From Terriglobia bacterium (GTDB taxonomy: Bacteria; Acidobacteriota; Terriglobia; UBA7540), in assembly GCA_020073545.1 (NCBI GenBank), contig JAIQEZ010000002.1, forward strand, positions 1 through 64,000: 64,000 bases of DNA. Direction: 5' to 3'. The position numbers were made by a program, and so were the translations under genes. Shown here piece after piece: positions 31,340 to 49,805 of this stretch. A model generated the notes under the pieces. It was not told the DNA's origin, did not search any database, and saw only the letters and a program-made list of their open reading frames with translations. Positions within the stretch are counted from its first letter, which is position 1; each line of letters opens with the position of its first letter.

Positions 31340-31420
31340 AAAAGCACACACTGGAAAATGAAAACGGGAGAATAGAAACCGGGAATTGGAAAGTCGAAAC
31401 TGGCGAATAGAGAGTGGCAC
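31340..31420. repeat. degenerate heptanucleotide tandem repeat
   Basis: About ten 7-base steps of TGGAAAA, TGAAAAC, TAGAAAC, TGGAAAG, TCGAAAC and TGGCGAA type. It is intergenic, between the GT4 relic and a methyltransferase gene. Confidence 0.55.
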
Positions 31421-31433
31421 ACAGCTCTGCACG

Positions 31434-32285
31434 TTAAGCCTGGCAGTATAGGAGGTGCTGGTGCGCGACATCATCGTGAACGCTGGTCAAACCGGCTAGA
31501 GGAAGGAACCGGCAGTGGCTGAACCCGGCCCCTTCTGCAAGGCTGAGCATCCGTTCGGGAGATCGCGAAAAGCAATCGAGCCCGCACCTGAGTTTCACAC
31601 GACCGCGCAAGGATGTGTCGCCCAGCCAATCAGCCTCAGATTTCCAGCCCACACCATTGATCACGACATGCATGAGCAGCCGTCCGCCCGGACGCAGCAT
31701 GTGATGAACGGTCCGAAGCGCCTCGCTCAGTACGGCGTCCCGAAGGTGCTGAGCAACCGCGAACGAGTACGCCAAGTCGGCAACACCCTCGTACTCGGAC
31801 GCCCGAATAACATTGACGTACCGGATGTTGGGGGCGCCGTTCAAGACCCGCGCGCAGGCGAGAGCACCCTCGGAAACATCGCAGGCGATGACGCACTTAG
31901 CAAACAGCGCGGCCTCAACGGCCATGTAGCCCGGACCGCATCCGTAATCCACAACCACGTCGCCGGGACTAATATGCGGCCTGATTACATCGTGAACGAT
32001 TTGGCGGCGAGAGACTCTGTTTCGTTGTGCTTCTTTTTGCAACACACCTCCCGGTACCCAAACCCGCCCATCCTTGTCAAAAATGTAATGGGGGCTGAGC
32101 GAAAGCATGCGCAGAGCAATTCCCTCCCGGTATATGGCGGGTGCCCTATCGATTAGTAGGCGGGCCCACCATGCCCCAAGAAAGTTCTGAGAAGTCCCCC
32201 AACCCATCGCCGGGGTGTACCGAAGCAGGGATTTGAGTTCCTTCAACACTCGAGAAGGAGACCAAGCTTTACACTGCATTCTCAT
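31434..32285 (-). CDS. SAM-dependent methyltransferase
   Basis: Start at ATG 32285 overlaps the stop of the upstream polymerase-like gene (ATGA). A front region without a clear match (about 100 residues, with VWVPGGVLQKEAQR) is followed by the Rossmann motif VVVDYGCGPGYMAVEAALF, CDVSEGALACARVL, VADLAYSFAVAQHLRD and HHMLRPGGRLLMHVV. About 283 residues. A longer frame to 32402 lies inside the upstream gene and is rejected as start. Probably methylates a sugar of the repeat unit. Confidence 0.82.
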   Translation of the reverse strand: MRMQCKAWSPSRVLKELKSLLRYTPAMGWGTSQNFLGAWWARLLIDRAPAIYREGIALRMLSLSPHYIFDKDGRVWVPGGVLQKEAQRNRVSRRQIVHDVIRPHISPGDVVVDYGCGPGYMAVEAALFAKCVIACDVSEGALACARVLNGAPNIRYVNVIRASEYEGVADLAYSFAVAQHLRDAVLSEALRTVHHMLRPGGRLLMHVVINGVGWKSEADWLGDTSLRGRVKLRCGLDCFSRSPERMLSLAEGAGFSHCRFLPLAGLTSVHDDVAHQHLLYCQA

Positions 32286-33826: not shown

Positions 33827-33961
33827 GCCACGGGCTAACGAAGTGGATGCGCTAAAGATTTTGACCCCTTGTGAAACCGCCCGCTGGTAGGAGAGGATTC
33901 GCGGAAGCAGTACGGCGGACCGAGGCGGCTTCGATCTTATGGACCCTTGGTCTAAGATACC

Positions 33962-35002
33962 TCATAGGGTCTGAGACTCCCCGACCTCGACAAGCCGCTG
34001 AGTGTGTAGTCCCAGGATTTCAAACATCCTTTGGAGCCTCATTTCGTAGGTGTGTTCGTTATGAGCGTGGGCGTAGGCGCGGTCAGCGATCTCTCGCCGT
34101 TCCTCAGGATGGGCGAGGTAATAATCGACTTTTTCCCTCAATTCCTGTTGGGTTCTAAACGTAACAATTTCTTTCTCTGGCTCAAACAGGTCGGGAAGTG
34201 CAGGCTTCCAATCAGCAATCTGGAAAGCCCCGCAGCCAGCGGCCTCGAATAATCTGCAATTGACTCCCTCGATTTCACCATAGTGCATGGTGTTGAGTAC
34301 GATCTTGGCCGCAGTGAACGCCTTCGCCTTTTCTTTTTCGGCAACGTATTCGTCCTGATAAGTCACTCGAAGGGGGGAGGAGAGCCATGCGGGATAACTC
34401 TTACCCCAGATCTTCATGTCGTAATTTGCGAAGATCTCCAACGACTTTGCCCGGTAGTAGTACATGTTGGAGGCGGTCACTAGGTCGCAGCCGTACTTGC
34501 GTCGATCCTCGATGCTCAATTCAACTCTCCGGTGCCAGAGGCTATTGCATGCTTCAGGCAAGTAGAAAGCATTGAGGGCCAGTTTGTCACGGAAGACGCG
34601 TACCATGTAAGGATCCTTGAGGAACCACGCATCCAAATCGCTGGCCAGCAGATACTGGCGGCCCAAGTTGACAAGGTGGTCCGGATACCATGCGGCAATT
34701 CTGGCCGAACATGTACTCCGGAGTTGCCGCACGACAGAGGGTGGCAGTGTTCCATAGGAAAGCAGAATCATGTCTGGAGCAAACTCCTCCGCTGCCCGGA
34801 CAAGTTTGCCTTGTCGTCTCTGTTCATATTTCGGGAAGAGCCGAGGGACAATCGTCCAGAAACCTGCCCATAGGACGTTCAAACGTCGGTGAATCGGGGT
34901 CTCCTCAACCACCATGACCTTATGCCCCATGCGGCGGGCGGTCACGGCGATATTTCGAGCGAAAGAATCCGGATAGAACTGGCCTGAGACCAATATCTTC
35001 AA
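33962..35002 (-). CDS. CgeB-like glycosyltransferase
   Basis: 346 residues: MKILVSGQFYPDSFARNIAV, a short N-terminal GT-B domain with WYPDHLVNLGRQYLLASDLD, and a C-terminal part with LNTMHYGEIEGVNCRLFEAA, CGAFQIADWKPAL and EIVTFRTQQELREKVDYYL. This is the CgeB/Glyco_trans_1_2 arrangement. Separated from the polymerase-like gene by 135 bases. Sugar unknown. Confidence 0.82.
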   Translation of the reverse strand: MKILVSGQFYPDSFARNIAVTARRMGHKVMVVEETPIHRRLNVLWAGFWTIVPRLFPKYEQRRQGKLVRAAEEFAPDMILLSYGTLPPSVVRQLRSTCSARIAAWYPDHLVNLGRQYLLASDLDAWFLKDPYMVRVFRDKLALNAFYLPEACNSLWHRRVELSIEDRRKYGCDLVTASNMYYYRAKSLEIFANYDMKIWGKSYPAWLSSPLRVTYQDEYVAEKEKAKAFTAAKIVLNTMHYGEIEGVNCRLFEAAGCGAFQIADWKPALPDLFEPEKEIVTFRTQQELREKVDYYLAHPEERREIADRAYAHAHNEHTYEMRLQRMFEILGLHTQRLVEVGESQTL

Positions 35003-35096
35003 GCTCGTGGCCCTCCGCTTCTGTCCCTACTCGGACTCCAACATCCCCTCCGTTCCATGAAATCCGGGGATAAGCCTAAGCCCAGGCTGTGCCGGT

Positions 35097-36401
35097 TCAG
35101 CGCCCTATTGTCGAACGCGGCTCTCCTATTTGGCACTCGAGAGCCTTGAGAATTCCCTCGACACACTTGTCATAACCGAAACCGCTTATGATCTCTTGCG
35201 AGCGTGCGGCCATTCGCTCGCGCAGGCCAGGTTCTGTTACCAGCCTACGGATGGCTTGGCCAAGGGCCCCCACGTCGCCGCAGGCGTAAACAAACCCATT
35301 CTCGCCATCTCGTACCAGATCCCCATCTCCCCACACGCCCGTGCGATCGCTGACAATTATGGGAAGGCTGCACGCCATTGCTTCGTTGGTCACCAAACCC
35401 CTCGGGTCCCGCGACGAAGGGAGCACGAAGATATCGGAGATTCCGTATATTTCGGGCAGCTCACTTTGATTCTTAAAGCCTAACAAATGAACATTCTTAA
35501 GAGCTAGCCGTTTGATCTCCGACTCAAGAAAGGGTCTGAGTTCGCCTTCACCTGCGAAGGCAACCGCAATATGGGGAACGCTCTCACGCAGCGAGAATGC
35601 GGCGTACAGCAGGTCCTGCGGGCGCTTCCAGGGGACGAGTTTGCCGACGAAAAGCAGGACTAGGGACTCTGGTGCAACCCCTAAGCGGGCTCGGAATTCA
35701 TCGCGCCTGCTCTTGACCGACGCTGCCCTACCTGCGAAGTAATCGTTGTCCACAGCCAACGGGACAAAGAAGCACTTTTGCGGCTGGACCCCGAAGGACT
35801 CGTAAAACTGTCGATTAAACGTTCCAGTCACCAAGAACGCCGCTACCCTACGGAACAAGCGCGCCAGGAGAGGGCGTCGGACAAGCTGGAAAAACCGTGA
35901 CTTAGAAGACTCGTAGAGCGCGTTAGTGTCGCCATATATCATCACAGGCACCCTGCCGAGCCAGGCGCCGAGGAATGCAAGCCAAGAAGTAAGCTGGCCC
36001 CACCCAAATAAGATGGCAGCGTCATAGGTACCTTTTGATAGCTCGGCTACGACTTGGGGGGAGGTGCAGCTAAAGAAGCTACGGATGTTCTCTGAGAAGT
36101 ACGCGGGCAAGACCCTATAGTGATAACCCTCAAGCAGCGGGACGTCCCACTTGACCTTCAAACCGAATCCGGGGTCGGAATACGTTTGAAAGCCCATGAG
36201 ACTGCTGTATAGGACGGTGCAGTCGATCCTAGGCTCCTCTGCAAGACGCCTAAAAAGCGGAACGAAATACTGGATAGGGTGGGTAATCACGACGGCAATC
36301 CTGTAGACACTTCTTGGGAGAGGATTCTGGCGCAGGGCGCTGTCCGGATTAGTGCTCAAGGGCGGAAGGTCAGAACGCCCGGGCAGTGTCACAGGTGCCA
36401 T
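35097..36401 (-). CDS. glycosyltransferase family 4
   Basis: 434 residues. About 30 residues precede the GT-B core, which begins RIAVVITHPIQYFVPLFRRL. The C-terminal domain has VLLFVGKLVPWKRPQDLLYA and VFVLPSSRDPRGLVTNEAMA followed by SLPIIVSD. The first 13 bases overlap the 3' end of the next gene upstream, so the two are translationally linked. The true start may be slightly inside, near RSVYRIAVV. Confidence 0.85.
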   Translation of the reverse strand: MAPVTLPGRSDLPPLSTNPDSALRQNPLPRSVYRIAVVITHPIQYFVPLFRRLAEEPRIDCTVLYSSLMGFQTYSDPGFGLKVKWDVPLLEGYHYRVLPAYFSENIRSFFSCTSPQVVAELSKGTYDAAILFGWGQLTSWLAFLGAWLGRVPVMIYGDTNALYESSKSRFFQLVRRPLLARLFRRVAAFLVTGTFNRQFYESFGVQPQKCFFVPLAVDNDYFAGRAASVKSRRDEFRARLGVAPESLVLLFVGKLVPWKRPQDLLYAAFSLRESVPHIAVAFAGEGELRPFLESEIKRLALKNVHLLGFKNQSELPEIYGISDIFVLPSSRDPRGLVTNEAMACSLPIIVSDRTGVWGDGDLVRDGENGFVYACGDVGALGQAIRRLVTEPGLRERMAARSQEIISGFGYDKCVEGILKALECQIGEPRSTIGR

Positions 36402-37411
36402 GGTGCTGCGGTGCCCATTCCCCGACTCTGGTTCGCGACGCTCCCTCGACCCAATTCGCTGGGAACCCTCAGGTTGGGTTTAGGATATCGCCAGTATCCC
36501 TCCCAGATCCCTTTCAGGACCGGGCGAACAAGCTCGAACTCTCCGCGCAACAACCGGGCTAACACTGCCCTGGGATAGAAATAGAAAATGCCCAGAACAT
36601 TAAACACCAACTGATGCGCCAGGTTGCCGTGCCGACGAATCAACCAGGCGCGATTCCGTACACCGTAAAAAGCAATGGTAGGAGGAAAACGCTTGAGCGT
36701 TGCGCTCATTAAATGCCGAACACCGGAGCCCGGAACGAAGCAAATTCTGTATCCGGCCTTGCGCGCACGGAAGCAAAGATCCGCATCCTCACACACCAAG
36801 AAAAAGCTTGCATCAAAGGCTCCAATTCGTCGAAGAGTCTCCCCTCTCAACATGATGGCGGCGCCGCAGACAAAATCGACATCCGTGGGCCCAAGCGGCG
36901 CTTCTGGGTAGGGCCAGTGCGAAGTCCTCCCCGAAAAAAGCCTAATGCGCTGACCACAATTCGGGGACGATTCATAACCAATATCGATGAGCGGACAGCC
37001 GGCAATTCCGATGCGCCGATCTCGCTGCATCGCCTCCACCAGCGGCGTGAGGCAGCCGGGGTCAGCGACGGTGTCGTTGTTCAGAACAAACAAGTAGTCA
37101 GCGCCATCTGCGAGGGCCCTTTCAATTCCACGGTTGTTGCCCCCTGCGTAGCCCTCGTTTTGGGAGTTGATTAAGAGTTCAATACGTGGATCGGTAAGGG
37201 CCTCTCGGAATCGCGCCACCGAGTCGTCGGTGGAGGCGTTATCCACCACAATCGCCTTGAAGTTCGGATACTCAATCTTGAGGACCGAATCGACACAATT
37301 CAGCGTTAATTGCGCACCGTTGTAGTTCAGAATGACGACGTAGACAAGTGGGGCGCTTGGGCTGAGAGGATCAAGTTGCTCCACAGTTGTCTGAGTCCTT
37401 TGGTCAAACAT
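36389..37411 (-). CDS. glycosyltransferase family 2 (rhamnosyltransferase-like)
   Basis: 340 residues: LVYVVILNYNGAQLTLNCVD, VDNASTDDSV, LLINSQNEGYAGGNNRGIER, LFVLNNDTVADPGCL (metal-binding acidic pair) and FLVCEDADLCFRARKAGYRI. These are the standard order for WbbL-type inverting GT2 enzymes. Overlaps the downstream GT4 gene by 13 bases. Confidence 0.88.
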   Translation of the reverse strand: MFDQRTQTTVEQLDPLSPSAPLVYVVILNYNGAQLTLNCVDSVLKIEYPNFKAIVVDNASTDDSVARFREALTDPRIELLINSQNEGYAGGNNRGIERALADGADYLFVLNNDTVADPGCLTPLVEAMQRDRRIGIAGCPLIDIGYESSPNCGQRIRLFSGRTSHWPYPEAPLGPTDVDFVCGAAIMLRGETLRRIGAFDASFFLVCEDADLCFRARKAGYRICFVPGSGVRHLMSATLKRFPPTIAFYGVRNRAWLIRRHGNLAHQLVFNVLGIFYFYPRAVLARLLRGEFELVRPVLKGIWEGYWRYPKPNLRVPSELGRGSVANQSRGMGTAAPWHL

Positions 37412-37573
37412 TTGCCGGAGTCCTTGCCAGGCGCAAGACGCGCAGCGCCTCCTCGTAAACCCCTACTGGCAACTCGGGAGATCCGTTCTGTTGCCCCCTT
37501 TGTCTCCGGTGGGAACAGAAAAGGAAGTCGTAGTCTTGGGGGCGTGCGCGGTGCTGTGCAGGCCGGTACATGT

Positions 37574-38389
37574 TCAATTATGGAGGATGCTGAGCCGATA
37601 TAAGAGCTGCACGGTCTTCTGGTGGATCGCCTTTGCGCGTGCAAACAATTCCGGGTTCCTTTCTTTGCACCTACGGGCAACGGGGACAAGCGCATCTTCC
37701 AACCGCCGGAGCCGGCTGCCCATTCGGAAGCTGTCGCTCGCACCTGCATGATTGAAGACCGTGTTGTAGTAACTAGGGAAAAAGGCAGCCCGGAACCGTG
37801 ACTGTTTCGCGAACCTGTCTTCGTAATCAAGCTCGCATTCCTCCATCCGGCACCTTTCCCGGTACTCACCCAGGTAATGAACCAGCTCATTCCTCTTGAG
37901 GTGGGGGCAGTCCGAGTAGACATGTTGAGTTAAAGGGGATGAGCTGGACTCTCTGCAGATTAGGTAGCAGTCTGGGCCTTCGAGGTCACGAATCCTGAAC
38001 TCCGCGTTCACCCCGTGAGCAACTCCGCAAAACTTAACGAGACCAATGTCGGGGTGAGCTTCCATCAGGAGGACCGTCTGCTCCAAGTACCGCGGCGGCC
38101 CCTGGCATTCCCAATCGTCCTGAATCTGCAAGATATACTTCCCGGCGCACTGCTTGAGGCCGGCGTTGGTGTTTGCCCCCAGTCCTCGATTCTTTTCGGA
38201 AGCAACTAACTTCTGAATCGGCAATGTCCGCATTTCCGCTTGCATCCACTTGGGACTGCCATCATCGGCGACTACCAGTTCAACATTGGGGTAGTCGTTG
38301 TTGCGAAGGAAAGACAGCACGGTCCTTTGGAGAAGATGAATCCGCCTGTAGGTTATGAACAGCACCGAAACCAGAGGACCTTGGTTCAT
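37574..38389 (-). CDS. glycosyltransferase family 2-like
   Basis: 271 residues: VSVLFITYRRIHLLQRTVLS, VELVVADDGSPKWMQAEM, NRGLGANTNAGLKQCAGKYI and LQIQDDWECQGPPRYLEQTV (DDW acidic motif). It starts with ATGA overlapping the flippase stop. A gap of 162 bases to the next gene shows no feature. Acceptor unknown. Confidence 0.83.
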   Translation of the reverse strand: MNQGPLVSVLFITYRRIHLLQRTVLSFLRNNDYPNVELVVADDGSPKWMQAEMRTLPIQKLVASEKNRGLGANTNAGLKQCAGKYILQIQDDWECQGPPRYLEQTVLLMEAHPDIGLVKFCGVAHGVNAEFRIRDLEGPDCYLICRESSSSPLTQHVYSDCPHLKRNELVHYLGEYRERCRMEECELDYEDRFAKQSRFRAAFFPSYYNTVFNHAGASDSFRMGSRLRRLEDALVPVARRCKERNPELFARAKAIHQKTVQLLYRLSILHN

Positions 38390-39810
38390 GGCTCAGCCAG
38401 AACGCGTGCGGCGCAAATTAGACGTGCGGTCGGTTCGGGTTCCTGCCGGGCCTTCAGGCTCCTGGTAAGAGAAACAGTTCCAGCTAGGAGAATAGAAGCC
38501 CACAGAACATAGGAGAGAAAGGTAGTGGCCCCGGCGGCGACTATGCCCCAGCGGGGAATTAAATAGATGTTTAACAAAACGTTCACTGTGGCGCCCGCCA
38601 GGTTAGCCAGGGAGAGGATACTGGTATTTTTGGCAGCAAAAAGGACTGTCACGGCGGACGAACCGATGACGAAGAAGATGTGCCCGGCGGCGATGAGTAA
38701 CATTAGCCTCCAACTGGACCAGTAGCTCTCACCTACGAGCATGAGGGCTATGCGTCTGCCGACGAAGCAGAGGAGGATTGTCCCGGCCGAAGCGGCGGCA
38801 AGTCCGGCGAAAACCCTCAACCACAAGCTGCGGCTGACCGCTTGCCAGTCGCCCTCCGCGGCGCGGGTGTAAGTCCGTGACCGGCTTACCGTGTCCAACC
38901 ATCCATTCAAAATCTGGTAGGGAAGTGACCAGAGACCGTAGTTCATCGTGTAGATCCCTACTGCACTCAGGCTCAAGTAGTGCCCGACAACGTAACGGTC
39001 TGAGGTTGTAAGTACCCAGCCGAAAAACGTAGCCAGATATACTCCCCCAGCAAATCGGCTGGCCAGACCCCGCGAAGCCTGCGCCTCTTCCAGGCCGGAA
39101 GAACGAACGCTTGGCTGCGTTGACGGATGTCGGCGGTCAGCGAAAACAAGGACAAGTGCGAGCGATGCCAGGGCTTGGGAAAGGATGATACCGTAAGCGC
39201 CAGACAGACCGGTGACAAGGAGTCCAAGTAGAAGGGGAACTTGGCCCGCCTTGAAGAGTAAGGTCGCAAATGCCAGGGGCCGGTAGCGGCGTTGAGCTTC
39301 AAGATAGTTGTTGGTGGCACTGGCGTGTGGCTGAACAAAAAGCAGCATGGCCGCGGGAAGAACGAGACCAAGATACAGGTGATTCCCTGCCCAACGGCCT
39401 ATTACTGCAATGAGCGCATAACAGATGGTGGAAAGCATTCCCACGCCCACGAGGAGCCATCTGAAACGTGCGTAGTAGGAGTCCGCACTTCCTCCGTTCG
39501 CGTGGTCAAAACCGAGCCGCAGGTGCGCAGTCAAGAGGGGATTAACCAGGAAAAGGGTTAGGAGCCCGATCACGCCGAGCACAAGACTGGCACGACCGAA
39601 CTCAGCGTTTGGGACGAAGGCAGCTATGACCTTTAGCGCGGCAAGTCCCCCCAAAACGGAGAATAGGTTGCCAGTCAGTGACCACCATGCATCTGGGAGG
39701 AGGGTGCGCGAACGAAGCTCCGGCAAATAGGCGTGGAGGACCTTCAGGGTTGCATTAAGCAGTCGGTTTCCGTGTTCGGCGCGCTGCAAAGAGATACTCA
39801 CGTTCGACAA
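38386..39810 (-). CDS. Wzx-type oligosaccharide flippase
   Basis: 474 residues, about 12 to 14 membrane helices in MOP-family arrangement. Segments: NLFSVLGGLAALKVIAAFVP, LGVIGLLTLFLVNPLLTAH, LATFFGWVLTTSDRYVVGHY and SAVGIYTMNYGLWSLPYQIL. It would move the finished lipid-linked unit across the inner membrane. ATGA overlap with the downstream GT2 gene. It resembles polysaccharide biosynthesis C-terminal proteins by topology and motif pattern. Confidence 0.83.
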   Translation of the reverse strand: MSNVSISLQRAEHGNRLLNATLKVLHAYLPELRSRTLLPDAWWSLTGNLFSVLGGLAALKVIAAFVPNAEFGRASLVLGVIGLLTLFLVNPLLTAHLRLGFDHANGGSADSYYARFRWLLVGVGMLSTICYALIAVIGRWAGNHLYLGLVLPAAMLLFVQPHASATNNYLEAQRRYRPLAFATLLFKAGQVPLLLGLLVTGLSGAYGIILSQALASLALVLVFADRRHPSTQPSVRSSGLEEAQASRGLASRFAGGVYLATFFGWVLTTSDRYVVGHYLSLSAVGIYTMNYGLWSLPYQILNGWLDTVSRSRTYTRAAEGDWQAVSRSLWLRVFAGLAAASAGTILLCFVGRRIALMLVGESYWSSWRLMLLIAAGHIFFVIGSSAVTVLFAAKNTSILSLANLAGATVNVLLNIYLIPRWGIVAAGATTFLSYVLWASILLAGTVSLTRSLKARQEPEPTARLICAARVLAEP

Positions 39811-39832
39811 CTGTGTGGCGCAGACTTATTCT

Positions 39833-39990
39833 CTAAGTTTGCGGCTTGTTTTCCGGCATGACACCAGGAGCCGCGGAGTGCAAGAACGACCCCGGGCTTG
39901 TCGCCAGTGCGGCACGCGCCGCGAACCACGCAGCATTGGCGGGGATGTAGAGGCTAAACTCCACGAGGCTGTGGGTAAGCAAGCTGCATC
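39833..39990 (-). pseudogene. relic of an O-antigen ligase C-terminus
   Basis: The frame reads CSLLTHSLVEFSLYIPANAA followed by WFAARAALATSP. The intact ligase gene ends CCGLLVHSLADFNLHIPANA followed by AWFAACAAIATSP. The match is at DNA level too (about three quarters of bases over roughly 100 bp against 40870-40985). Upstream sequence of the ligase is missing, so this is a C-terminal leftover. The FkbM gene lies between relic and intact copy. Confidence 0.65.
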
Positions 39991-40760
39991 GGCCCTGCGT
40001 CGTGGCCCTCCGACGGCCATCCACTCGGCAAAGCAATCATCTCGTCAGACCGCTCCAGGTTGTTGTCACCGATCGCTCGTAACTGATACCCGAATGATTC
40101 AAGAAGCTGGCAACACTGTTGGTGAAGGTCTTGTCCGTGTGTAGCCAGAAAAACGGTTGGCCGCGTGTTTTCAAGCAGGAACGTCGCCCCGGTGAGAACC
40201 AACAGTTCAGCGCCTTCGACGTCGATTTTCATATAGTCCGGAGGGGGCAGTTCGCCTCTCCTAACCATTTCGTCCAGGCTAACTGTTCTGACTGTAAGGC
40301 AGCCGTCAGCAGCAAGGCGCCCCATCGAAGGGTTCGGTCCTGCGTCAAAATGTGCGACGCCAACACAGTCCGCAACCGCGGCCTCGATTACAGAAACGTT
40401 CTTTATGCCGTTGATCCGCAGATGTTCTTGAAGATAGCGAAGGTTCCGTGGGACAGGCTCGAACGCGAAGACCCTCCCCTGAGGGCCAACCAAGACCGAC
40501 GCTAACAGGGTATAGAAACCGGTATTGGCCCCGATATCGAACACGACGCTACCCTTCGCCACCCTCTCTTCAAATGCCTTCCGTTTGTGGTACTCGTAGC
40601 TTCCCAGCCAGCAGCCGTGGTTGCTTGAGCCAGCTATCCACTTCAAGCCCCTCAGTTTGCCCTGAAGAATGGGGAGCACCGTATCTGGAGGAAGAAGACG
40701 CAAGGGACGACGGAGAGCCTTGCCCGCGAGCGATTTGTCAGATATTCCGGAAAAATCCAT
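39954..40760 (-). CDS. FkbM-family SAM methyltransferase
   Basis: Core motifs: SVVFDIGANTGFYTLLASVL, GRVFAFEPVPRNLRYLQEHL and PPDYMKIDVEGAELLVLTGA, the standard FkbM pattern. ATG at 40760 (MDFSGIS) has a GAGGA box close by; a longer frame to 40904 would run into the ligase 3' end and is less likely. Ending extends into the ligase relic (its last residues are GPMQLAYPQPRGV), so the C-terminus may be partly captured sequence. Likely O-methylates a sugar. Confidence 0.82.
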   Translation of the reverse strand: MDFSGISDKSLAGKALRRPLRLLPPDTVLPILQGKLRGLKWIAGSSNHGCWLGSYEYHKRKAFEERVAKGSVVFDIGANTGFYTLLASVLVGPQGRVFAFEPVPRNLRYLQEHLRINGIKNVSVIEAAVADCVGVAHFDAGPNPSMGRLAADGCLTVRTVSLDEMVRRGELPPPDYMKIDVEGAELLVLTGATFLLENTRPTVFLATHGQDLHQQCCQLLESFGYQLRAIGDNNLERSDEMIALPSGWPSEGHDAGPMQLAYPQPRGV

Positions 40761-40846
40761 TTTCCTCAACGCGGCACTGCCGGAAGCAAACAGGTTCGGC
40801 AATAGGCGAGGGTCGGATAAGTCGTCGACCGTCAAAGCTCGAAAGT

Positions 40847-42337
40847 CTAAGGCACTGCTGCCCTGGGCGGAGATGTAGCGATGGCGGCGCACGCGGCGAA
40901 CCACGCGGCGTTGGCGGGGATGTGGAGGTTGAAGTCCGCGAGGCTATGGACGAGGAGGCCGCAGCAGCCGAGTGCGGCGCCGAACTGAATCCACCCGGCG
41001 CGATGCTTGAGTCGTTCGCGTAAATTCCCGAAGGCCAGCCAAAAGAACAACCCGAGCGCGAACAAGATCAGCGCTCCGCCGGCGATGCCCGTTTCAGCGA
41101 GCGCCTCAGCATAGTCGTTGTGGGCGTGGTCCCACGTGAGGTCGCCTGGAAAACCCTGGTACCGGTGGAAGACCGTCTCAAAGCTGCCCAGGCCGGCGCC
41201 TAGCCAGGGATGATCGCGGAGAATCCGCAGAGAGTCACGACTCGCAACTAAGCGCTCGCCCAGGCCTACCTCGCGCGAATGGGTGATGTCCACCACGGTC
41301 TCGAGCCGCTCCAAGCTTTGGCGCGGCGCCATCCAAACGAAGAGTAGTGCGGCGGCGACGAGGGCAGAACTCCCCAGCACGGCCGTGGTTTTGCGCGCGC
41401 TCGCCGGCCCGCGCAGGAAGATAAGCACCGCCGCTAGCAGGACCTCCATCGCCAGGGAGATCAGGCCTCCGCGCGAACCCGAGAGCAGCACGGACACAAT
41501 CGGGATCAACACTACGCAGCCAAGAAAAACGGCCAGGGCGGTGGTCGAGGATTCCCGCCCCGCCCTGCTTGCGCCTGCCTGCTGGTAGGCAGGGCCGGCA
41601 AGCCGCGCAGGCAGGTTCTGCGGAACCTGTCCCGATGCTTCGGATGACACGGCGTGGGAAGGGGGTAGCGACGGGGGTTTGCGAAACGCTGTCAGGACGC
41701 TGGCAACCACTAGGGGGATCAACATCTCCATTAAACCCGCGTAATGGTTGTGGTTGACATAGGGCCCGAAAGTCCAACCGGGGCTCTTCACCGTCCAGTA
41801 GATCAACCCGTGGCTCGAGAAGAACTGGAAGATGGCAAAAAGCGCCAGCAGAAATGCGTACACGACGATCGTCCAGCGAAGTGTGTCACCCCGCTCCCCT
41901 ATGGGGGCGAGGGTTGAGCGCGCGGGGGCCGATGCGCCGAGAAGCTGCGCAGCCATGAAAAAGAGAACGAGGTCTGTGGCGAGCTTGAGCAACGATTCCC
42001 GTGTGGCGACAGGATCCATCGTGAGATGACCAAAGAATTGGACCATTCCCAGGAAAAAGAAGAGCCCGGCGGGCACGTAGAGCGGTGACCAGATAATTCT
42101 CAGCGCCCCTTGTTGCACGCTGCCCATTGACCACAACAGAAGCAGAAGAAACGCCAGGACCGCGAGCGCCCCCCAGGCCCATTCCTGGACGGCGCCAAAA
42201 GGCAGCGGCGCAGCGAGCAGTGTCGCTACCAGCAACGCGCGCGTGAGGGCAAACAAACACGGCGGCGTCTTGGTCTGCTGGCAGCTTGCTTCCCTGAAAA
42301 AAGGGACCTTGGTATCAAGGGCGACTGATGATGGCAT
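40847..42337 (-). CDS. O-antigen ligase/polymerase-like protein (Wzy_C)
   Basis: Polytopic protein of about 496 residues with a Wzy_C/WaaL signature. Helices include LFALTRALLVATLLAAPL and WGALAVLAFLLLLLWSMG; the conserved loop is GPYVNHNHYAGLMEMLIPL and the late core is LGAGLGSFETVFHRYQGFPG and WDHAHNDYAEALAETG. ATG at 42337 is chosen over TTG at 42355. A stretch at about 41550-41645 encodes an in-frame insert that matches an intergenic repeat family. It could join polysaccharide to an acceptor or polymerise it; a second polymerase-like gene is in the locus. Confidence 0.8.
   Translation of the reverse strand: MPSSVALDTKVPFFREASCQQTKTPPCLFALTRALLVATLLAAPLPFGAVQEWAWGALAVLAFLLLLLWSMGSVQQGALRIIWSPLYVPAGLFFFLGMVQFFGHLTMDPVATRESLLKLATDLVLFFMAAQLLGASAPARSTLAPIGERGDTLRWTIVVYAFLLALFAIFQFFSSHGLIYWTVKSPGWTFGPYVNHNHYAGLMEMLIPLVVASVLTAFRKPPSLPPSHAVSSEASGQVPQNLPARLAGPAYQQAGASRAGRESSTTALAVFLGCVVLIPIVSVLLSGSRGGLISLAMEVLLAAVLIFLRGPASARKTTAVLGSSALVAAALLFVWMAPRQSLERLETVVDITHSREVGLGERLVASRDSLRILRDHPWLGAGLGSFETVFHRYQGFPGDLTWDHAHNDYAEALAETGIAGGALILFALGLFFWLAFGNLRERLKHRAGWIQFGAALGCCGLLVHSLADFNLHIPANAAWFAACAAIATSPPRAAVP
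41550..41645. repeat. in-frame palindromic repeat insert inside the ligase-like gene
   Basis: ATTCCCGCCCCGCCCTGCTT and CTGCCTGCTGGTAGGCAGGG resemble the repeat at 43838-43894 (CATTCCCGCG, CCTGCGCTTGCCTGCG). The insert encodes about 30 residues with a low-complexity composition. Confidence 0.45.
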
Positions 42338-42424
42338 GGCTATGACGTGCTGCAAACTAGGTCGTCAAGAGTGAATCGCCAAAGGTTGAAAGTCCGTCAA
42401 CAAGGGAGCGGGGAACGATCTTGC

Positions 42425-43744
42425 TCAGCGTCCGACTTCTCGCCATGCGCCTACCGAAACACCGTCCACCCAGAAGCTCCCCGATATCTCCATGGGGAAA
42501 GTCCGGCTGGGGGGGCGCCACACGGAGAGCCGCACGGCCTGGGTCGCGGCGCCCGTAGAAAACTTCAAGGTGACCAAGTGCCACGGAGTGGTGCCCACCG
42601 TTGTGGCCGTCGAGGCAGTCCAGCAGCCTGGGCAGGCCGTATCCGTCACACGCAGGCACGGCCCGCTGTCGGAGGTGATGTCCCTGCTGCGGACGTAAGC
42701 CGCGAGCGTGTAAGCCTTGTTAGCGGCCACGGGAAGGATCTGGTAAACCGGCTCGAATTCATCGTTTTGGCTGACTGGGAAATCGACGCGCAGGCAACGC
42801 GCCCCCTGGTAGGCCGAGGAGTCGGCAAAATCAACGGAAACATAGGGCGACGGCGGTGAGCGCCAATCGAATCCCGCGTCCAAGGGCGGTTGTTCAAAAC
42901 CGCCGTTGAACACCAAATTGCCCTCCTCGCTGTCCGCAGGTCTTGCGATGACGCCCCGCTGCTCGAGGTGCAACCAAACCGCCTGAGCTTCCTGGTACCG
43001 GCCGCGACTCAATAAGCGCTCGAGGTAGGGCTGTACGGCCACAAAGGGGAACGGCGAGCCCCCACCCGCTACCTCGGTCCAAGCCTGATGCGCAGTTTCG
43101 AAATCGTCATGCCCGCTCGTGAAATCCGCAAAGGCCAGCGCCAGCTTCGGATCTTCCCCCCCGCCCACGATATTTTCGAGAATCATCTTCGGGTTGCCAT
43201 AGGCGCGCAGGGTTAGGTCGAAGGTTGGTGTCGCGTAGTCGGGGCTCAGCTCGAGCAAGCGGTGGAAGCAGGGCAAAGACGCCTCCGGCCGGTCAGTGCG
43301 CAAATAGTGGTTGCCAGCAACCCACCAAACCAGCGGCATCATGGGGGAAAGAAACAGTGCGCGCTGAAGCGCTTGGTCTGCGCAAGCGTCGTTATGGATA
43401 GATTCACACGCGGAGGCGAGGCTCAGCCAATAGTCGAATTTATTGGGATTTAACGCCGTGGCTCGCCGCGCTTGCGCAACGCCCTCGGCGAGGTTTGACA
43501 GCCCCAGCGAATCGCCATAAAGCTGGCTAAGCCGATCGTGAAGCGCCGGGTTGTCGGGATCGAAGGCGAGACCCTTGCGGACCGCAGAAACCTCGGTCGA
43601 TTTCCCCAACGCGGTGACCGCCGCAATCTTTATTGCCTCCGCGCTGCCCGCCAGCGTCACCAGCGCCACCAGGGACAGAAATAATGCTGAACGCCGGCGA
43701 GACTTCAGCGAGAAATCAATGTAATCTGCAAAGAGAAGGCGCAT
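42425..43744 (-). CDS. TPR-repeat protein with C-terminal carbohydrate-binding-like domain
   Basis: 439 residues. One membrane helix near the N-terminus (ALFLSLVALVTLAGSAEAI), several TPR-like repeats (residues about 60-270, for example AQARRATALNPNKFDYWLSL) and a C-terminal jelly-roll-like domain (NLVFNGGFEQPPLDAGFDWR, VYQILPVAANKAYTLAAYVR) of CBM4/9-type pattern. A periplasmic scaffold role in polysaccharide assembly is a guess from context. It lies between the Wzc-type and ligase-like genes. Confidence 0.75.
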   Translation of the reverse strand: MRLLFADYIDFSLKSRRRSALFLSLVALVTLAGSAEAIKIAAVTALGKSTEVSAVRKGLAFDPDNPALHDRLSQLYGDSLGLSNLAEGVAQARRATALNPNKFDYWLSLASACESIHNDACADQALQRALFLSPMMPLVWWVAGNHYLRTDRPEASLPCFHRLLELSPDYATPTFDLTLRAYGNPKMILENIVGGGEDPKLALAFADFTSGHDDFETAHQAWTEVAGGGSPFPFVAVQPYLERLLSRGRYQEAQAVWLHLEQRGVIARPADSEEGNLVFNGGFEQPPLDAGFDWRSPPSPYVSVDFADSSAYQGARCLRVDFPVSQNDEFEPVYQILPVAANKAYTLAAYVRSRDITSDSGPCLRVTDTACPGCWTASTATTVGTTPWHLVTLKFSTGAATQAVRLSVWRPPSRTFPMEISGSFWVDGVSVGAWREVGR

Positions 43745-44045
43745 GGGGAGGGAGTCAGGAGTTAGGATTCAGGACTCAAGACTGCGCCCGTTGGTAACAC
43801 ACCAGAGAAAAAGCCCGCTGGCTGTGGGCTATTCCTTCGTCATTCCCGCGATGCGTGCCTGCGCTTGCCTGCGACACGCAGGGCGGGAATCCAGAAGGTA
43901 AACACCATGTCACGTCCGCGGCTGCTCTCGTCTCGTGACCGCCTAGCGAAGTCCCGAGCCCGTTCTGCCCACACACGGCGCTTTGGTTGACTGCGAACAC
44001 TTCGGCAAAGCACCCGACCAGGCGGGCAGGGGACTAGCTGGGAGG
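43745..44045. other. intergenic gap with two repeats
   Basis: It holds a heptamer-type repeat next to the TPR gene (GTCAGGA GTTAGGA TTCAGGA, about 43753-43783) and a palindromic CATTCCCGC repeat (43838-43894). No gene is evident. Confidence 0.5.
43838..43894. repeat. palindromic repeat, CATTCCCGC type
   Basis: CGTCATTCCCGC at 43838-43849 pairs with GCGGGAAT at 43883-43890. The unit recalls the widespread CGTCATTCCCGC...GCGGGAATCCAG elements. Confidence 0.6.
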
Positions 44046-46292
44046 CTATGCCCTGACCGCGTCGGCCTTCGCCGTTCGCTCGTTATCACCCGAGTGATAG
44101 TAGTAATGATTATGATAACCGTAATATCCGTCATGGCGCACGTCCACCTTATTGAGGACGATGCCCAGAACCTTTGCCCCGACGTTTTGCAGAATCTTGC
44201 GAGCACGAGTCACGGCTCCTCGGACGGTCGCGCCACTCTCTATGACAAAAACCACCCCGTCCACGAAAGTTGAGAGGACCATCGCATCCGCAACGGGAAG
44301 CACGGGTGGGGAATCAATCACCAGGAACTTGAACTGCTTGCGCAATTCTCGGAGCATTGATTCCATGGCAGAGGAGGAAAGCAGTTGCGCCGGGTTGGGT
44401 GGCTTGGGGCCGGTGGGGAGTGCCCAAAGAGTGGGTACCGGGGGAAACTGTCTCAGCGCCTCCTCGAGGCTGTGCGCTCCGGTCAGGAAGCTCGCGAGAC
44501 CTTTGCCATTACCCAGATTGAGCGACTCAGCGATTCTGGGATGGCGAAGATCCGCATCGATAAGCAGAGTCGGCTCTCCCCTCTGAGCGAGTGCGATCGC
44601 CAGGTTGAGAGCTGTGCTTGTCTTCCCCTCATTAGCCGTAGAGCTGGTGATCAATAACGCCTGGGGCGGCTGCGGGGCCGTCGAGAGTACCACCGAGGTC
44701 AGGAGAGTTCGAAAGGATTCTGCCAGCGCCGAGGAGGGTTGACTCAAAAGCGCTAATCCCTGTGTTGCTGCCAACCCGCCGTTGTTTCCTGGAAGCGATG
44801 GACGGGGTCGCCGAAGCGTATCGCGAGAGAATGGGATAACCGCCAAGGCCGGAGCGTTAGCCAGCCTCTCCGCCTCATCGATGCTCTTGATGGAAGTGTC
44901 CACAGCTTCTTGTACGAAGGCAAGCGCCAAACCGAGGACTAGTCCGACGGTCAGGCCAATGAGGATATTGAGAAGCTTTTGAGGACGCACCGGCGACCTG
45001 GGAGGTTTTGCCGGGTCGATTACATGAATATTCGTTGCGCGCAGACCCGCTGAAACTGTCGCATCCTTGAGCCGCTGCAGGAGGTTGTCATAAAGTTGCT
45101 GATTTGTCTCAAACTCACGCTTCAGGAGATTGTGCTGGATCAGGAGCTGGTTCAGTGCCCCCACTTCGACTTTTTCTTTGGCGACGGCAGCCGTGAGGAG
45201 CCTCTCCCGACCCTGGGCTGCCATGTAATCATTCCTGATCCTCTCCACCATGCGTTTTCGCTCTCTCTGGATCAGCGACTGAATCTCATCCACCTGACTC
45301 TGCAGCCGCTCGGCTTTGGGGTGCTTCGGCCCGAACTGCTGCAAGGCATCAACGTATTGCGACTTCAGGTCAGCACACTTTTCTTCCAGCCGCTGCAAGA
45401 GGTCGTTTTGCGCAACGAAGGCGACTTGCGATTCGTTCGAGCGCACCAGTTCATAGACCGACTCTTTTTGCAGCCGATCGCTTTGGGCGTTAGTCAGGTC
45501 TCGACTCAGATCGGACAGTCTCTGCTCGACGACGTTCTCCTTGTCGCTGACATTAACAATAGCGTTCTGCCTCTCATAATCGACTAGCGCCTGCTGTGAC
45601 TTTTCGACTTTGGCTTTCAATTCATCGAGTTGGTGTTCCATCCACCCGGAAGCCTGACGAGTGGCGTCGTACTTCTCCCGAAAATTGTATTCGATGTAGT
45701 TACTCGCCAGCGCGTTTGCGACTTTGGCGGAGAGGCCAGGGTCGGCGCTCTCGAAACTAACATTCACGACGTGGCTGTCGCGTACTTTCTGGACGTGCAG
45801 AGAGCCCTTGAAGGGCCCGAGGAGTCCATCGGGCGACGTTGTGGGTTTAGCTGAAAACGGGCTGTTTGCCTGCCGGATGGCGACGCCCCAGGCCGGATCT
45901 CTCGCCAGGCTGAGTTGCTCGATCGTGCGCTCCGCCAGGCTGTCGCCTTCGAGGACTTGAATTTGCGTTCCAATGAATGCTTCGTCGGTGGGGATCTGGC
46001 GAAAGAGGTCATTCAGCGATTGAATTTGAAGCGTGTCAGCCTCGATGTCCAGACGGACCGTGGCTTCATAGATCGGCGTCATCTTGAAAGACGCGATCGC
46101 AACCAGCAGCGTCACAATAAAGGTGACGGTCACGATCGTCCAGCGACGCTTGTTGATGATGTTCCAATAGGTTTGCAGGTAGCTGAAGCTGTCGAACTCT
46201 TGTGCTTCGATATCGAGGACCGGGATAGCCGGCGAGTGTGCAGCTTCTGGCAAGTTCGGCCCTCGCGGCACGAGGGCCTGGTTATCAGGCAT
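44046..46292 (-). CDS. polysaccharide co-polymerase / BY-type tyrosine autokinase (Wzc-like)
   Basis: About 748 residues. An N-terminal Wzz domain with a first membrane helix (IVTVTFIVTLLVAIASF) and long periplasmic coiled coils is followed by a second helix (LNILIGLTVGLVLGLALAF). The BY-kinase domain comes next: Walker A ITSSTANEGKTSTALNLAIA, A' LLIDADLRHPRI and Walker B FLVIDSPPVLPVADAM. It ends in a Tyr cluster (GYYGYHNHYYYHSG) for autophosphorylation. It controls chain length and works with Wza. ATG at 46292 has AAGG close by; the frame also opens at GTG 46301. Confidence 0.92.
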   Translation of the reverse strand: MPDNQALVPRGPNLPEAAHSPAIPVLDIEAQEFDSFSYLQTYWNIINKRRWTIVTVTFIVTLLVAIASFKMTPIYEATVRLDIEADTLQIQSLNDLFRQIPTDEAFIGTQIQVLEGDSLAERTIEQLSLARDPAWGVAIRQANSPFSAKPTTSPDGLLGPFKGSLHVQKVRDSHVVNVSFESADPGLSAKVANALASNYIEYNFREKYDATRQASGWMEHQLDELKAKVEKSQQALVDYERQNAIVNVSDKENVVEQRLSDLSRDLTNAQSDRLQKESVYELVRSNESQVAFVAQNDLLQRLEEKCADLKSQYVDALQQFGPKHPKAERLQSQVDEIQSLIQRERKRMVERIRNDYMAAQGRERLLTAAVAKEKVEVGALNQLLIQHNLLKREFETNQQLYDNLLQRLKDATVSAGLRATNIHVIDPAKPPRSPVRPQKLLNILIGLTVGLVLGLALAFVQEAVDTSIKSIDEAERLANAPALAVIPFSRDTLRRPRPSLPGNNGGLAATQGLALLSQPSSALAESFRTLLTSVVLSTAPQPPQALLITSSTANEGKTSTALNLAIALAQRGEPTLLIDADLRHPRIAESLNLGNGKGLASFLTGAHSLEEALRQFPPVPTLWALPTGPKPPNPAQLLSSSAMESMLRELRKQFKFLVIDSPPVLPVADAMVLSTFVDGVVFVIESGATVRGAVTRARKILQNVGAKVLGIVLNKVDVRHDGYYGYHNHYYYHSGDNERTAKADAVRA

Positions 46293-46350
46293 GGCCTTCA
46301 CCCCAGCAGATAAGGATTGTCCAGGAAATTCGGGCGTGCGTCACGCATCC

Positions 46351-47430
46351 TCACCAGTGCCAGATCAGGAGGCTGGTCGTGGTGTAGATAGCGGCTTCGG
46401 CGCCACGGCGCAAGGCCCGCTTTCCTGTGCTGTCCGCGACGAATAGGATGTCGTTGGCCTGCAGTCGGGGATCAGCCTCTCGACCTTCCAGCACGTTCTT
46501 CAGGTTAACCGCAATCTCTTCTCGTCCATTCGGCGCCGCCGCACTTTTCCGCATGATCATGGCTTTCTTCCGGGCAGCCGTCGGTTTCAGATCCTCGGCA
46601 AGCGCCAGCGCCTGCAAGACAGTCATATCTACCTGACCGGTCTTCAACGGGAACCCTCCCGGCCGATTCACCGCGCCCACGACATAAACGATCCCGGCGC
46701 GTTGCACCGTGACTCTGTCTCCGGGATACAGGTCCACGTTGAAAGCGGGGTCCCCGGTCTCCTCCAACTGCTTGAGGTCCACCGTGAAGGTTTGAGCGCA
46801 AGGGGCCTGCCGGGCCGCGGACTCACACTCTCCGGATTGCTTCAAGGCCTGCATCGCAATTCCTCCCCGGGTTATGAGGGCCGTCCCGCCCGCGTCATTC
46901 GCCAGGCCTTGTGCCTGCGAGAGGACGTCCAACAACGTCGCCTTTCCAAACAAGGGATAGATCTGGGGCGTCTTGACTGCCCCCGCTACGGTGATGGAAT
47001 GGACGCGAGACTCCTTGACGGCCACCGTCACCCGAGGATGACTGTAGATTTCTGCCTTGCGGTATTTCTCGCTGATATGTTCGGAAAGCTGAGCAGGCGT
47101 CAGCCCCGCGGCTACGATGGCTTCGGAGAGCAAGGGCAGCTCGATCTGCCCGGCTGGGCTGACACGGTATTCACCGGAAATATCAGGGGAGTCATAGACG
47201 CTGACGATCAGGACGTCAGCCGGGCTAATAATGTAGTCAGGGAGGGCCAGGGAGGCAGACGCCGCCGGTGAGGCTGGTCCCGATACGATTTCTGAGTCAG
47301 GGACGACGGCCCGAGGGGTTTGCGCGGCCAGGAGCGGACAGCAAGCCAAGATGAGCGCACAGGCGGCCGCAAGCCTGTTTCCCATGAGCTTTCTCAGAAG
47401 GGTACGCGGAATGCCAGCCGATACTACCAT
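46351..47430 (-). CDS. polysaccharide export outer-membrane protein (Wza-like)
   Basis: 359 residues with a signal peptide and possible lipobox (LAAACALILACCPLL), a PES domain (VLIVSVYDSPDISGEYRVSP, GQIELPLLSEAIVAAGLTPA) and one to two SLBB domains (SITVAGAVKTPQIYPLFGKA, IVYVVGAVNRPGGFPLKTGQ). It forms the outer-membrane export pore. AGGAG lies seven bases before the ATG at 47430. Ends 59 bases before Wzc. Confidence 0.92.
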   Translation of the reverse strand: MVVSAGIPRTLLRKLMGNRLAAACALILACCPLLAAQTPRAVVPDSEIVSGPASPAASASLALPDYIISPADVLIVSVYDSPDISGEYRVSPAGQIELPLLSEAIVAAGLTPAQLSEHISEKYRKAEIYSHPRVTVAVKESRVHSITVAGAVKTPQIYPLFGKATLLDVLSQAQGLANDAGGTALITRGGIAMQALKQSGECESAARQAPCAQTFTVDLKQLEETGDPAFNVDLYPGDRVTVQRAGIVYVVGAVNRPGGFPLKTGQVDMTVLQALALAEDLKPTAARKKAMIMRKSAAAPNGREEIAVNLKNVLEGREADPRLQANDILFVADSTGKRALRRGAEAAIYTTTSLLIWHW

Positions 47431-47519
47431 TTCGGTTCTCCTGATTCTTTGCCCGGGGGGAGGTTTTCTGCCCGGTGGTCTCGTGCGTCATCACCTCTGA
47501 CGCCAAAACCACGCGCCCC

Positions 47520-48113
47520 TCAGGCGTAAGGGCGAGGGTGGAAAGTGCAGGAACGCTCAAACCCACTCCGTTCGGGTCGTTGCACACGCTCTACCACCCA
47601 CGCGTCCACTTCCACAGCCGCCGATTTCTGGACAAGCTCGACTGACAAAACCAGGCGGAATTGGCTCTTGTTGCGCACCAGGATCCCTTCGATGCCTTCC
47701 AGCGGGCCACACTTTACTCGAACCCAATCTCCGCACTTGAGGAAGGGATGGGGTTCAACGCGCGCGGATCTCGCAATGGATCGGCGCAGCGCTTCGATCT
47801 CCACGTCGGGTATGATCGCGGCCACGCCTGCGAAGCCCACCAAACCCTGGACGCCCGGCGTGGTCAAAATACTGAGCCGCTGCTCGAGTCCCCGGCGCAA
47901 AAACAAGTAGCAGGGAAAGAGCGGCAGGGAAAGTTCCTTGGTTCGATCACTCCACTGGCGAACGGCGGTGTACAGAGGCAGGAATACTTCAAACCCCTTG
48001 TAGGCCAGAGAACGTGCAGCCAGTTTCTCATGCTGGTGCTTGGTGTAGATCGCAAACCAGCCTAGGCCCCCCGGCCGGTAGTCCTCAAGCGGTTCGGCAT
48101 CGCGCGTTAACAT
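47520..48113 (-). CDS. NusG-paralogue transcription antiterminator (RfaH/UpxY/LoaP-type)
   Basis: ATG at 48113 has GGAG five bases upstream; the longer frame to 48218 has none. The NGN domain reads GWFAIYTKHQHEKLAARSLA, FEVFLPLYTAVRQWSDRTKE and LPLFPCYLFLRR; the KOW part reads CGDWVRVKCGPLEGIEGILV. Specialised NusG paralogues bind the elongation complex at a leader and allow read-through of long polysaccharide operons. It is the first gene of the export-to-glycosyltransferase series, which spans about 32 kb, fitting such a role. Confidence 0.9.
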   Translation of the reverse strand: MLTRDAEPLEDYRPGGLGWFAIYTKHQHEKLAARSLAYKGFEVFLPLYTAVRQWSDRTKELSLPLFPCYLFLRRGLEQRLSILTTPGVQGLVGFAGVAAIIPDVEIEALRRSIARSARVEPHPFLKCGDWVRVKCGPLEGIEGILVRNKSQFRLVLSVELVQKSAAVEVDAWVVERVQRPERSGFERSCTFHPRPYA

Positions 48114-48261
48114 ATAGCTCCGCCCTCTGACTCCCAAGAGTCCTCCACTTCCTAAGCCGCTTCTTGCGAACAATTCCACCTCTCCCGGTGGCTCTTTCCC
48201 GGCCGCAGAGCAGCCCACCTGCCCAAGACATCCCCGCCGACAACGGATCCTTGCTTTCCTT

Positions 48262-48636
48262 TCAACTCTCCCTCAACTTGCTTGATCGGCTTGCTTGATC
48301 GGCGTTGGAAGCCTCTATCCCGAACAGATCACTGAGCTGGTTGTGCTGAAATCGGCCGGTCCCTCGGAAGCCTACGGCGACCTCGAATCGGGGCTCCTCT
48401 CTGAGACGCTCAACGGTTCCTTCAAAGCGGATCGTCGTGACTTGTTTGTCCGGACTCTGGAAGTGCACGAGCAGAACAATCCTTGTCCCTGGTACCAAGG
48501 GTTGCTCCAATGCTATTCGGGCCCCGCCAACTCCAATGTCGTAAAGCACGCCCTGCATTTCTGTCTGGTGGTTTGGTCCATTGGAAAGATGGACAGTTAC
48601 AGGGCATCGGATCTCGAACCGCCTCTCTTCGCGCAT
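48262..48636 (-). CDS. PilZ-domain protein
   Basis: 124 residues from ATG 48636. The PilZ entry motif RRFEIRCPVTVHL (R-x3-R) is followed by VLYDIGVGGARIALEQPLVP, where the second c-di-GMP motif DxSxxG is altered to DIGVGG. This change may lower ligand binding. It sits just upstream of the NusG paralogue and probably in the same transcript, linking c-di-GMP to polysaccharide expression or export. The longer frame to 48684 has a poor start. Confidence 0.75.
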   Translation of the reverse strand: MREERRFEIRCPVTVHLSNGPNHQTEMQGVLYDIGVGGARIALEQPLVPGTRIVLLVHFQSPDKQVTTIRFEGTVERLREEPRFEVAVGFRGTGRFQHNQLSDLFGIEASNADQASRSSKLRES

Positions 48637-49085
48637 GGTGTAAGCCTTTCTGCTTTTGTTCAGGCCATTACGGAAGCCGACCACTTTAGGGTGGTCTCCT
48701 TTTTAAATGTTGGAGAGGGGAAAAACAATCGCCTGTCGGTATGAGTCTCCGACCTAAATGGTATGAGAGAGTCTGTCCAGCACCTACGCCAACCTGCCTA
48801 GGAATAACGTGAGCGCGCAGCCGCGCGAGCAGCCGGAAGGATTAGGAAGGTCGGGCTTCGCCACATGAGGACTTCCTAATACTTTCCTCCTAGGCAGATC
48901 GTTTCGGTCTATTGGTTTCCTTCGTTATCCGCTGACAGCCGAAGGGCTTCTAGGAACATTCCTACAGGCGAGGATCACTCAAGGAGGTGAACTGCAAAAG
49001 GTCTGTTCCTGACCAGAAAAACCCGGACTGGGGAAACACCTGCGGGGCGACACGGGCCCGAGATCCCGTCTGTCAAGCCTCGAAC
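48637..49085. other. upstream leader region of the polysaccharide locus
   Basis: About 450 bases between the PilZ start and the end of the LuxR-type gene. It contains two nested perfect inverted repeats (see the 48794-48897 entry). A promoter could not be assigned. No coding frame is supported; one plus-strand frame at 48987 has its GTG inside the purine-rich box. Confidence 0.5.
48794..48897 (-). promoter_or_regulatory. nested inverted repeats (candidate structured leader)
   Basis: CTGCCTAGGA (48794-48803) is perfectly complementary to TCCTAGGCAG (48888-48897). Inside, ATTAGGAAG (48841-48849) is complementary to CTTCCTAAT (48872-48880). The stems nest, so the minus-strand transcript could fold into a long hairpin. 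It lies about 160 bases upstream of the PilZ gene. No known riboswitch consensus matches. Function is inferred. Confidence 0.45.
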
Positions 49086-49805
49086 TCATGCGGGCATCGG
49101 CTTCTCGTCTTGATCAGAACGGACGTCGGCCTTCTTCCGCTTTCCCTGAGGCGAGGCAGGTTTGTGGGGGAATTCTCCGTTGGACTTGGCATGCTGGAAA
49201 TAGTAAAGGGTGGCCGCCAGGCGGCAGTCCACATTGATCTTCCGGTAAAGGGTGTACAGGTGGGTCTTCACCGTATTTTCTGAAACCGTAAGGCGATTAG
49301 CAATTTCTTTGTTGCGGGAACCATTGGCCAGCAGGGCGAGGATCTCCCACTCCCGGCGCGTCAGCGCATTCCAGCTTGCGTGGTCCCCGTTCTCCGATTG
49401 CGCGAGCTTGCCGATGATCCGTGTCGCCACGCGCTGGCTCACCCAGATGTCGCCCTGTCCGACGATGTCGCAAGCCTTGACCAAGGTGTCCAGGTCTGTG
49501 GCCCTTGAGACGCATCCCCACGCCCCCGCCCGGAGCGCCTGAAATTCTGTCTCCTCATCGGTCTTGTCTAGAATGAGCAGGACTTTGATCTTGGGTAAGA
49601 GCTTACGCAGGCGGGAGACGATTTCGAGATCCGAGGCACGACCGCTGGCTTGAAGGAGCAGAATCTCCGGCTGTGCCTCGCGCAGCACACCCAGGTCGTC
49701 TGGAAAGTTTGAAAGGTCTACTACTACAGCGTGGTTCCTTGAAGTCAGGAGGGCACGCATTCCCTCTCTGGTCAGGTGATACGGGCTGATGACTCCCAAT
49801 CTCAT
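49086..49805 (-). CDS. LuxR/NarL-type regulator with degenerate receiver
   Basis: 239 residues. N-terminal receiver-like domain MRLGVISPYHLTREGMRALL lacks the acidic pair, and the phospho-acceptor site reads LLLQASGRASDLEIV, with no Asp at the usual position. The C-terminal HTH is canonical (LTRREWEILALLANGSRNKE, ANRLTVSENTVKTHLYTLYR). Without the Asp it may act by ligand or protein contact, not phosphorylation. A TTGACA box lies upstream. Adjacent to the polysaccharide locus and to a diguanylate cyclase, so a role in its control is likely. Confidence 0.82.
   Translation of the reverse strand: MRLGVISPYHLTREGMRALLTSRNHAVVVDLSNFPDDLGVLREAQPEILLLQASGRASDLEIVSRLRKLLPKIKVLLILDKTDEETEFQALRAGAWGCVSRATDLDTLVKACDIVGQGDIWVSQRVATRIIGKLAQSENGDHASWNALTRREWEILALLANGSRNKEIANRLTVSENTVKTHLYTLYRKINVDCRLAATLYYFQHAKSNGEFPHKPASPQGKRKKADVRSDQDEKPMPA

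Follow-up and report, generated by a model that had tools for sequence, protein, structure and literature searches.

Organisation of the locus

In this soil acidobacterium a NusG paralogue gene heads a very long sugar-polymer cluster. The window (the whole stretch of DNA analysed, 64,000 nucleotides) carries on its minus strand, in this order, a NarL/LuxR-type regulator, a PilZ gene, the nusG paralogue, wza (47430-46351) and a Wzz/BY-kinase gene, with the series continuing to position 15787. The regulator and the PilZ gene are separated by 449 nt, the PilZ gene and nusG by 148 nt, and nusG and wza by 89 nt.

49086..49805, minus strand: NarL/LuxR-type response regulator, upstream and co-oriented (PF00196, 65.5 bits)
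48262..48636, minus strand: PilZ-domain gene, immediately upstream of nusG (PF07238, 36.2 bits)
47520..48113, minus strand: nusG paralogue, UpxY family, 197 aa, ATG at 48113 (PF02357, 60.9 bits; NF033644, 114 bits; beta-type KOW in the AF2 model)
47514..47534, minus strand: weak hairpin of terminator type at the stop codon of nusG (present at 1 of 31 loci)
15787..47430, minus strand: EPS gene array, the proposed target (Pfam matches and gap sizes)

The EPS array comprises wza and genes for Wzz/BY-kinase, Wzx, Wzy, glycosyltransferases, methyltransferases, AsnB, a heparinase-like protein, a UDP-GlcNAc epimerase and an initiating sugar transferase. An earlier note on this DNA had placed a specialised NusG between PilZ and wza, which the gene order and the PF02357 match bear out, and had described the downstream genes to 15.8 kb as co-oriented with few gaps; from the PilZ gene to position 15787 all genes do indeed share one orientation over 32.8 kb, with a largest gap of 364 nt, and form a putative single transcript. 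A search of the leader region located no promoter. A terminator after nusG was considered as a shared feature and rejected, the window being alone among 31 loci in having one.

Just upstream of the EPS array lie genes for a REC-GGDEF protein (50706-51656, minus strand) and a 1641-aa PAS/HisKA/REC/Hpt hybrid kinase (51795-56720, minus strand), which together with the PilZ gene make this a cyclic-di-GMP neighbourhood. The second motif of PilZ domains is normally D/NxSxxG; in the translated PilZ protein of the window an RxxxR-like motif is present and the second motif is altered to DIGVGG. A small PilZ-like gene is found just 5' of NusG in 12 relatives, and Pfam confirmed the domain in seven of the ten submitted. 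Elsewhere in the window, a gene at 695-3022 (minus strand) joins a TOTE-type archaeo-eukaryotic primase domain to a ResIII helicase and a DUF559 nuclease and resembles genes of conflict or defence systems, and genes for tRNA-Cys (57241-57315) and tRNA-Gly (57483-57557) lie on the minus strand.

The NusG paralogue

The paralogue is one of four in its own genome, besides a housekeeping NusG. It scores above the cut-off of the UpxY model NF033644 (114 bits against 100) and below those of the RfaH equivalog TIGR01955 (76.1 bits against 144.5) and the LoaP model (43.8 against 125). As judged by these profiles the paralogue is a member of the UpxY family, and its gene heads a surface polysaccharide operon, as predicted from Pfam annotation and gaps. 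Among proteins of solved structure RfaH is the nearest in sequence (E 3e-7), followed by NusG, and fold comparison of the AF2 model returns NusG and RfaH. This model, which is of moderate confidence (mean pLDDT 74, pTM 0.52, 13 sequences), places beta-strands between positions 131 and 177, giving a beta-type KOW domain. In an alignment with RfaH, the paralogue retains K10 but has S, Y and P at the positions of H20, R23 and R73, respectively.

A conserved element upstream of nusG

Relatives of the paralogue were gathered by protein rather than by DNA, and their upstream DNA was then compared. The relatives retrieved in this way are Acidobacteriota, in which the paralogue commonly precedes wza/wzz-type genes, and the comparison brought out short stretches of strong similarity at a common position, with the consensus GTAAGTCAnAGGGCGGAGCTwTATG. 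The corresponding features of the window are:

48114..48136, minus strand: ops-like element TGGGAGTCAGAGGGCGGAGCTAT, proposed recruitment and pause site, with a predicted RNA 3' end near 48114 (PSSM 28.7 bits; recurs in relatives)
48124-48117, minus strand: element core GGCGGAGC, within TGGGAGTCAGAGGGCGGAGCTAT

The PSSM was trained on 61 Acidobacteriota sites, with the window's genome left out; the runner-up on either strand of the 64 kb scores 3.7 bits. The window copy is diverged and departs at two positions from the phylum pattern TGTAASTSANRGGGCGRAGCTDT, for which 0.04 matches are expected by chance in the window. Another site in the same genome with two mismatches to the pattern (C84:15875) is likely to be a chance match.

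We tallied by hand the 29 non-redundant, protein-retrieved loci that offered sufficient upstream sequence, counting the window as one of them, and found the element upstream of the paralogue in 22. A variant core, NNTGGCGAAGC, occurs at four further loci, of which C63 belongs to the same genome as the window; among the remainder, L030 carries the element just downstream, L039 carries it on the divergent strand and L031 has none. In a PSSM scan the element was absent from the housekeeping nusG. The NNTGGCGAAGC variant is found where other NusG paralogues begin (C63 of the same genome, which is L052, and L054, L057 and L058), with a small stem preceding the core in several. These variants are possible specificity classes; no amino-acid column clearly separating G-type from A-type cores was found.

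In the window the element and the nusG ribosome-binding site overlap, with the ATG following at 48113. The conserved stretch could be read as a strong translation-initiation signal for nusG alone (GGAG, spacer, ATG). An ATG directly follows GGAGCTwT in the window, L029, L032-L035 and L043, in keeping with such a signal. Elsewhere, however, the element is found at differing distances ahead of PilZ, wzz or wza and many sites lack an ATG, while conservation extends about 15 bases upstream of GGAG/GAAG. Although the element lies immediately 5' of nusG in many loci, in L042, L044 and L045 it is found 450-760 nt upstream, before PilZ, and is therefore not merely the nusG ribosome-binding site. We regard a translational role alone as highly improbable.

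The reported rule for a consensus or elemental pause is G-10 Y-1 G+1 (PMC12288461). Judged on the sequence alone, the window element fits this register at G-11, G-10, T-3 and Y-1, with A rather than G at +1.

Distribution of the element in the Acidobacteriota

In 396 Acidobacteriota genomes the pattern TGTAASTSANRGGGCGRAGCTDT, with two mismatches or fewer allowed, gave 64 matches, against six for the reversed pattern; as these sites were collected by the pattern itself, conservation within it stems partly from selection. DNA was fetched around 60 of the 64 matches, and for 53 of these the sequence extends 4 kb or more downstream of the site. At 41 of the 53, EPS genes follow on the strand of the element, compared with 1/53 on the opposite strand and 1/40 at random places (Fisher P 2e-14), the control consisting of 20 regions each read in both orientations and thus not of 40 independent places. 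This is an ops-like placement, upstream of long operons and on their strand, with transcription of the element predicted. An UpxY-type paralogue is present in 33 of 37 genomes with the element and in 16 of 37 without it (P 3e-5), the latter being a largely family-matched set; the 16 genomes with a paralogue and no match indicate that the pattern misses variants or that some paralogues do not use the element. Several phylum sites directly precede wzz or wza with no adjoining nusG, which suggests action in trans there. The element is conserved, keeps its strand, and is linked both to the paralogues and to EPS operons.

Second copies of the element occur away from nusG in the same fetched contigs (L044:10891, L046:3491 on the minus strand, L047:4469 and L050:5387 on the minus strand), that of L047 about 0.5 kb before wza. 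These are possible internal loading sites.

A linkage of this kind might also arise if the element were a DNA operator, common to EPS operons, for an initiation regulator such as the upstream NarL/LuxR-type protein. The strand and operon linkage, taken alone, are compatible with an operator, and a NarL/LuxR-type gene lies upstream in many of the relatives' loci. Against this, the element is asymmetric and non-palindromic, keeps one strand with respect to the operon (41 to 1) and, in the window, sits in the PilZ-nusG interval at the ribosome-binding site of nusG; its core and pause register moreover resemble ops. An operator thus appears quite unlikely.

Pairing upstream of the core

Directly upstream of the core, the sequence of the window allows a small stem:

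48129..48142, minus strand: stem GACTC-TTGG-GAGTC, an optional hairpin part (sequence)

This stem has 5 bp and is no better than chance. When all sites are considered, the arm before the core pairs upstream with a score of at least 8 in 15%, compared with 1.8% of shuffles (P 2e-8), and the pairing also exceeds that of arms swapped between sites. Perfect stems of 10-12 bp with joint changes on both arms are found at some sites (L045, L035, L193, L184 and L156). RNAalifold on a MAFFT alignment returned a GGC/GCT mini-hairpin alone, the left arm having been misaligned by MAFFT.

The pairing in excess of shuffles and swapped arms, with covariation in the longest stems, raises the possibility that the element acts as RNA, through a nascent hairpin (of the GGCTTAC...GTAAGTC type) and a purine-rich tail that would be bound by the paralogue in a LoaP/dfn-like manner or would stabilise a pause. 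Strong stems are nevertheless found in a minority of sites, the window's 5 bp are at chance level, and the most conserved part is the single-stranded core. The UNCG-type hairpin of LoaP (PMC12691694) is not clearly seen at the element, and none was evident on inspection of the minimum-energy fold of the leader. We therefore consider action as RNA possible though doubtful; where present, the stem may help pausing.

Nested inverted repeats in the leader

The earlier note had pointed to inverted repeats upstream of the PilZ gene, and these were found exactly where it had placed them:

48794..48897, minus strand: nested inverted repeats, found in no relative (10 bp, 48794-48803/48888-48897; 9 bp, 48841-48849/48872-48880)

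Perfect 10-bp arms arose in 11 of 300 shuffles and a nested pair of at least 9 bp in none of the 300, so that the repeats are real and, as a nested pair, rarer than chance. The inner loop of the hairpin also carries GGCGAAGC, the same 8-base core, at 48862-48855 on the minus strand. We rejected this second core as an element since the full-element score is -23 bits and its flanks do not fit. The leader hairpin folds with mildly low energy (z -1.77), which 8 of 200 shuffles equalled or bettered. A search of the 38 other genomes of the family found no DNA similar to the leader. Rfam returned tRNAs alone for the whole window and no family for the leader even at E 5, and no U-tract follows the nested hairpin, which lies about 660 nt upstream of the nusG element. 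The rarity of the repeats and the core in their inner loop speak for the proposal that this hairpin is the recruitment signal or an attenuator, but its absence from every relative, the missing U-tract, the poor element score and the distance from nusG make that very unlikely. The earlier note was right about a specialised NusG, which very probably works on a cis signal at the operon head; its choice of the nested hairpin as that signal is probably wrong, since the hairpin is unconserved whereas the element at 48136-48114 is conserved across the phylum and tracks the paralogues and EPS operons.

A model for recruitment of the paralogue

The best reading of these data is that the element is a new ops-like site at which UpxY-type antiterminators would be loaded and RNA polymerase would pause, with read-through to follow. 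By analogy with ops, which loads RfaH in E. coli, the element probably loads the paralogue onto RNA polymerase. For the window, we think there is a good chance that the paralogue is an UpxY-family antiterminator loaded in cis at 48136-48114 and carried through the EPS operon, with pausing, binding and antitermination predicted from sequence. RNA polymerase would start at a promoter either ahead of PilZ or in the PilZ-nusG interval, reach 48136-48114 and pause near 48114. The exposed non-template strand would then display the core GGCGGAGC, possibly as a loop closed by C-G and containing G-G-A, and the NGN domain of the paralogue would read this core and remain on the polymerase, which could thus escape premature termination (probably Rho-dependent) over the roughly 30 kb of the EPS operon. 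As nusG immediately follows the site at which its product would be loaded, the paralogue would promote its own expression together with that of its operon, in a positive feedback. A broader proposal would be a phylum-wide antitermination code of the Acidobacteriota, in which variant ops-like triloop cores serve UpxY-type factors both in cis and in trans, every paralogue prefers a variant of its own, and the recurrent PilZ ties loading to cyclic-di-GMP; we consider it unlikely in this full form.

How operon-encoded NusG paralogues are recruited is, according to PMC7593976, unknown. A concrete sequence that is conserved and accompanies UpxY-type paralogues throughout the phylum makes the way in which they find their operons directly testable, and allows candidate antiterminated operons to be recognised in any acidobacterial genome. 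The literature on RfaH, UpxY and LoaP that was covered ties no such element to Acidobacteria; most subscription papers fall outside that coverage, and an earlier report is possible.

Comparison with known systems

The system described here shares with LoaP and the dfn RNA hairpin of Bacillus a specialised NusG, a cis signal in the leader and long gene clusters as targets. The two differ in the signal: LoaP reads a UNCG-type RNA hairpin (PMC12691694), whereas the conserved part of the acidobacterial element is a mostly unpaired core.

The plan of RfaH and ops is similar, in that both systems combine a NusG paralogue with long polysaccharide operons and a short, strand-specific element at the operon head. 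RfaH reads G4, G5 and the flipped T6 of a non-template loop closed by C3:G8, with contacts from K10, H20, R23 and R73 (PMC5995543). The acidobacterial core, GGCGRAGC, retains the C, G, R, A and G of ops and its GGCG-AGC frame is able to close C3:G8; the pause-like register and K10 are also shared. It departs from the GGCGGTAGC core in lacking T6, which leaves the loop one base shorter, and the paralogue, with H20, R23 and R73 replaced, lacks most of the residues by which RfaH touches T6. The factor is moreover usually encoded in cis and belongs to another phylum, its NCBIfam RfaH score is below the cut-off, and its C-terminal domain is modelled, with moderate confidence, as a beta-barrel, in contrast to the alpha-hairpin of RfaH. 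Plain local alignment of the element with the E. coli JUMPstart, whose position between galF and rfbB was confirmed, was not significant (about 7-9% of shuffles scored at least as high), and we therefore claim a likeness of plan and not common descent. This likeness suggests that ops-like non-template loops are recognised more widely than the RfaH case would indicate, and are read in a different way.

With the UpxY proteins of Bacteroides the paralogue shares its protein family and its place at the head of the polysaccharide operon that it probably serves. For UpxY the site of action has been described as the 5' leader that precedes upxY (PMC7819879). The acidobacterial loci differ in that a concrete element is proposed as the site of action, and in that a PilZ gene adjoins nusG.
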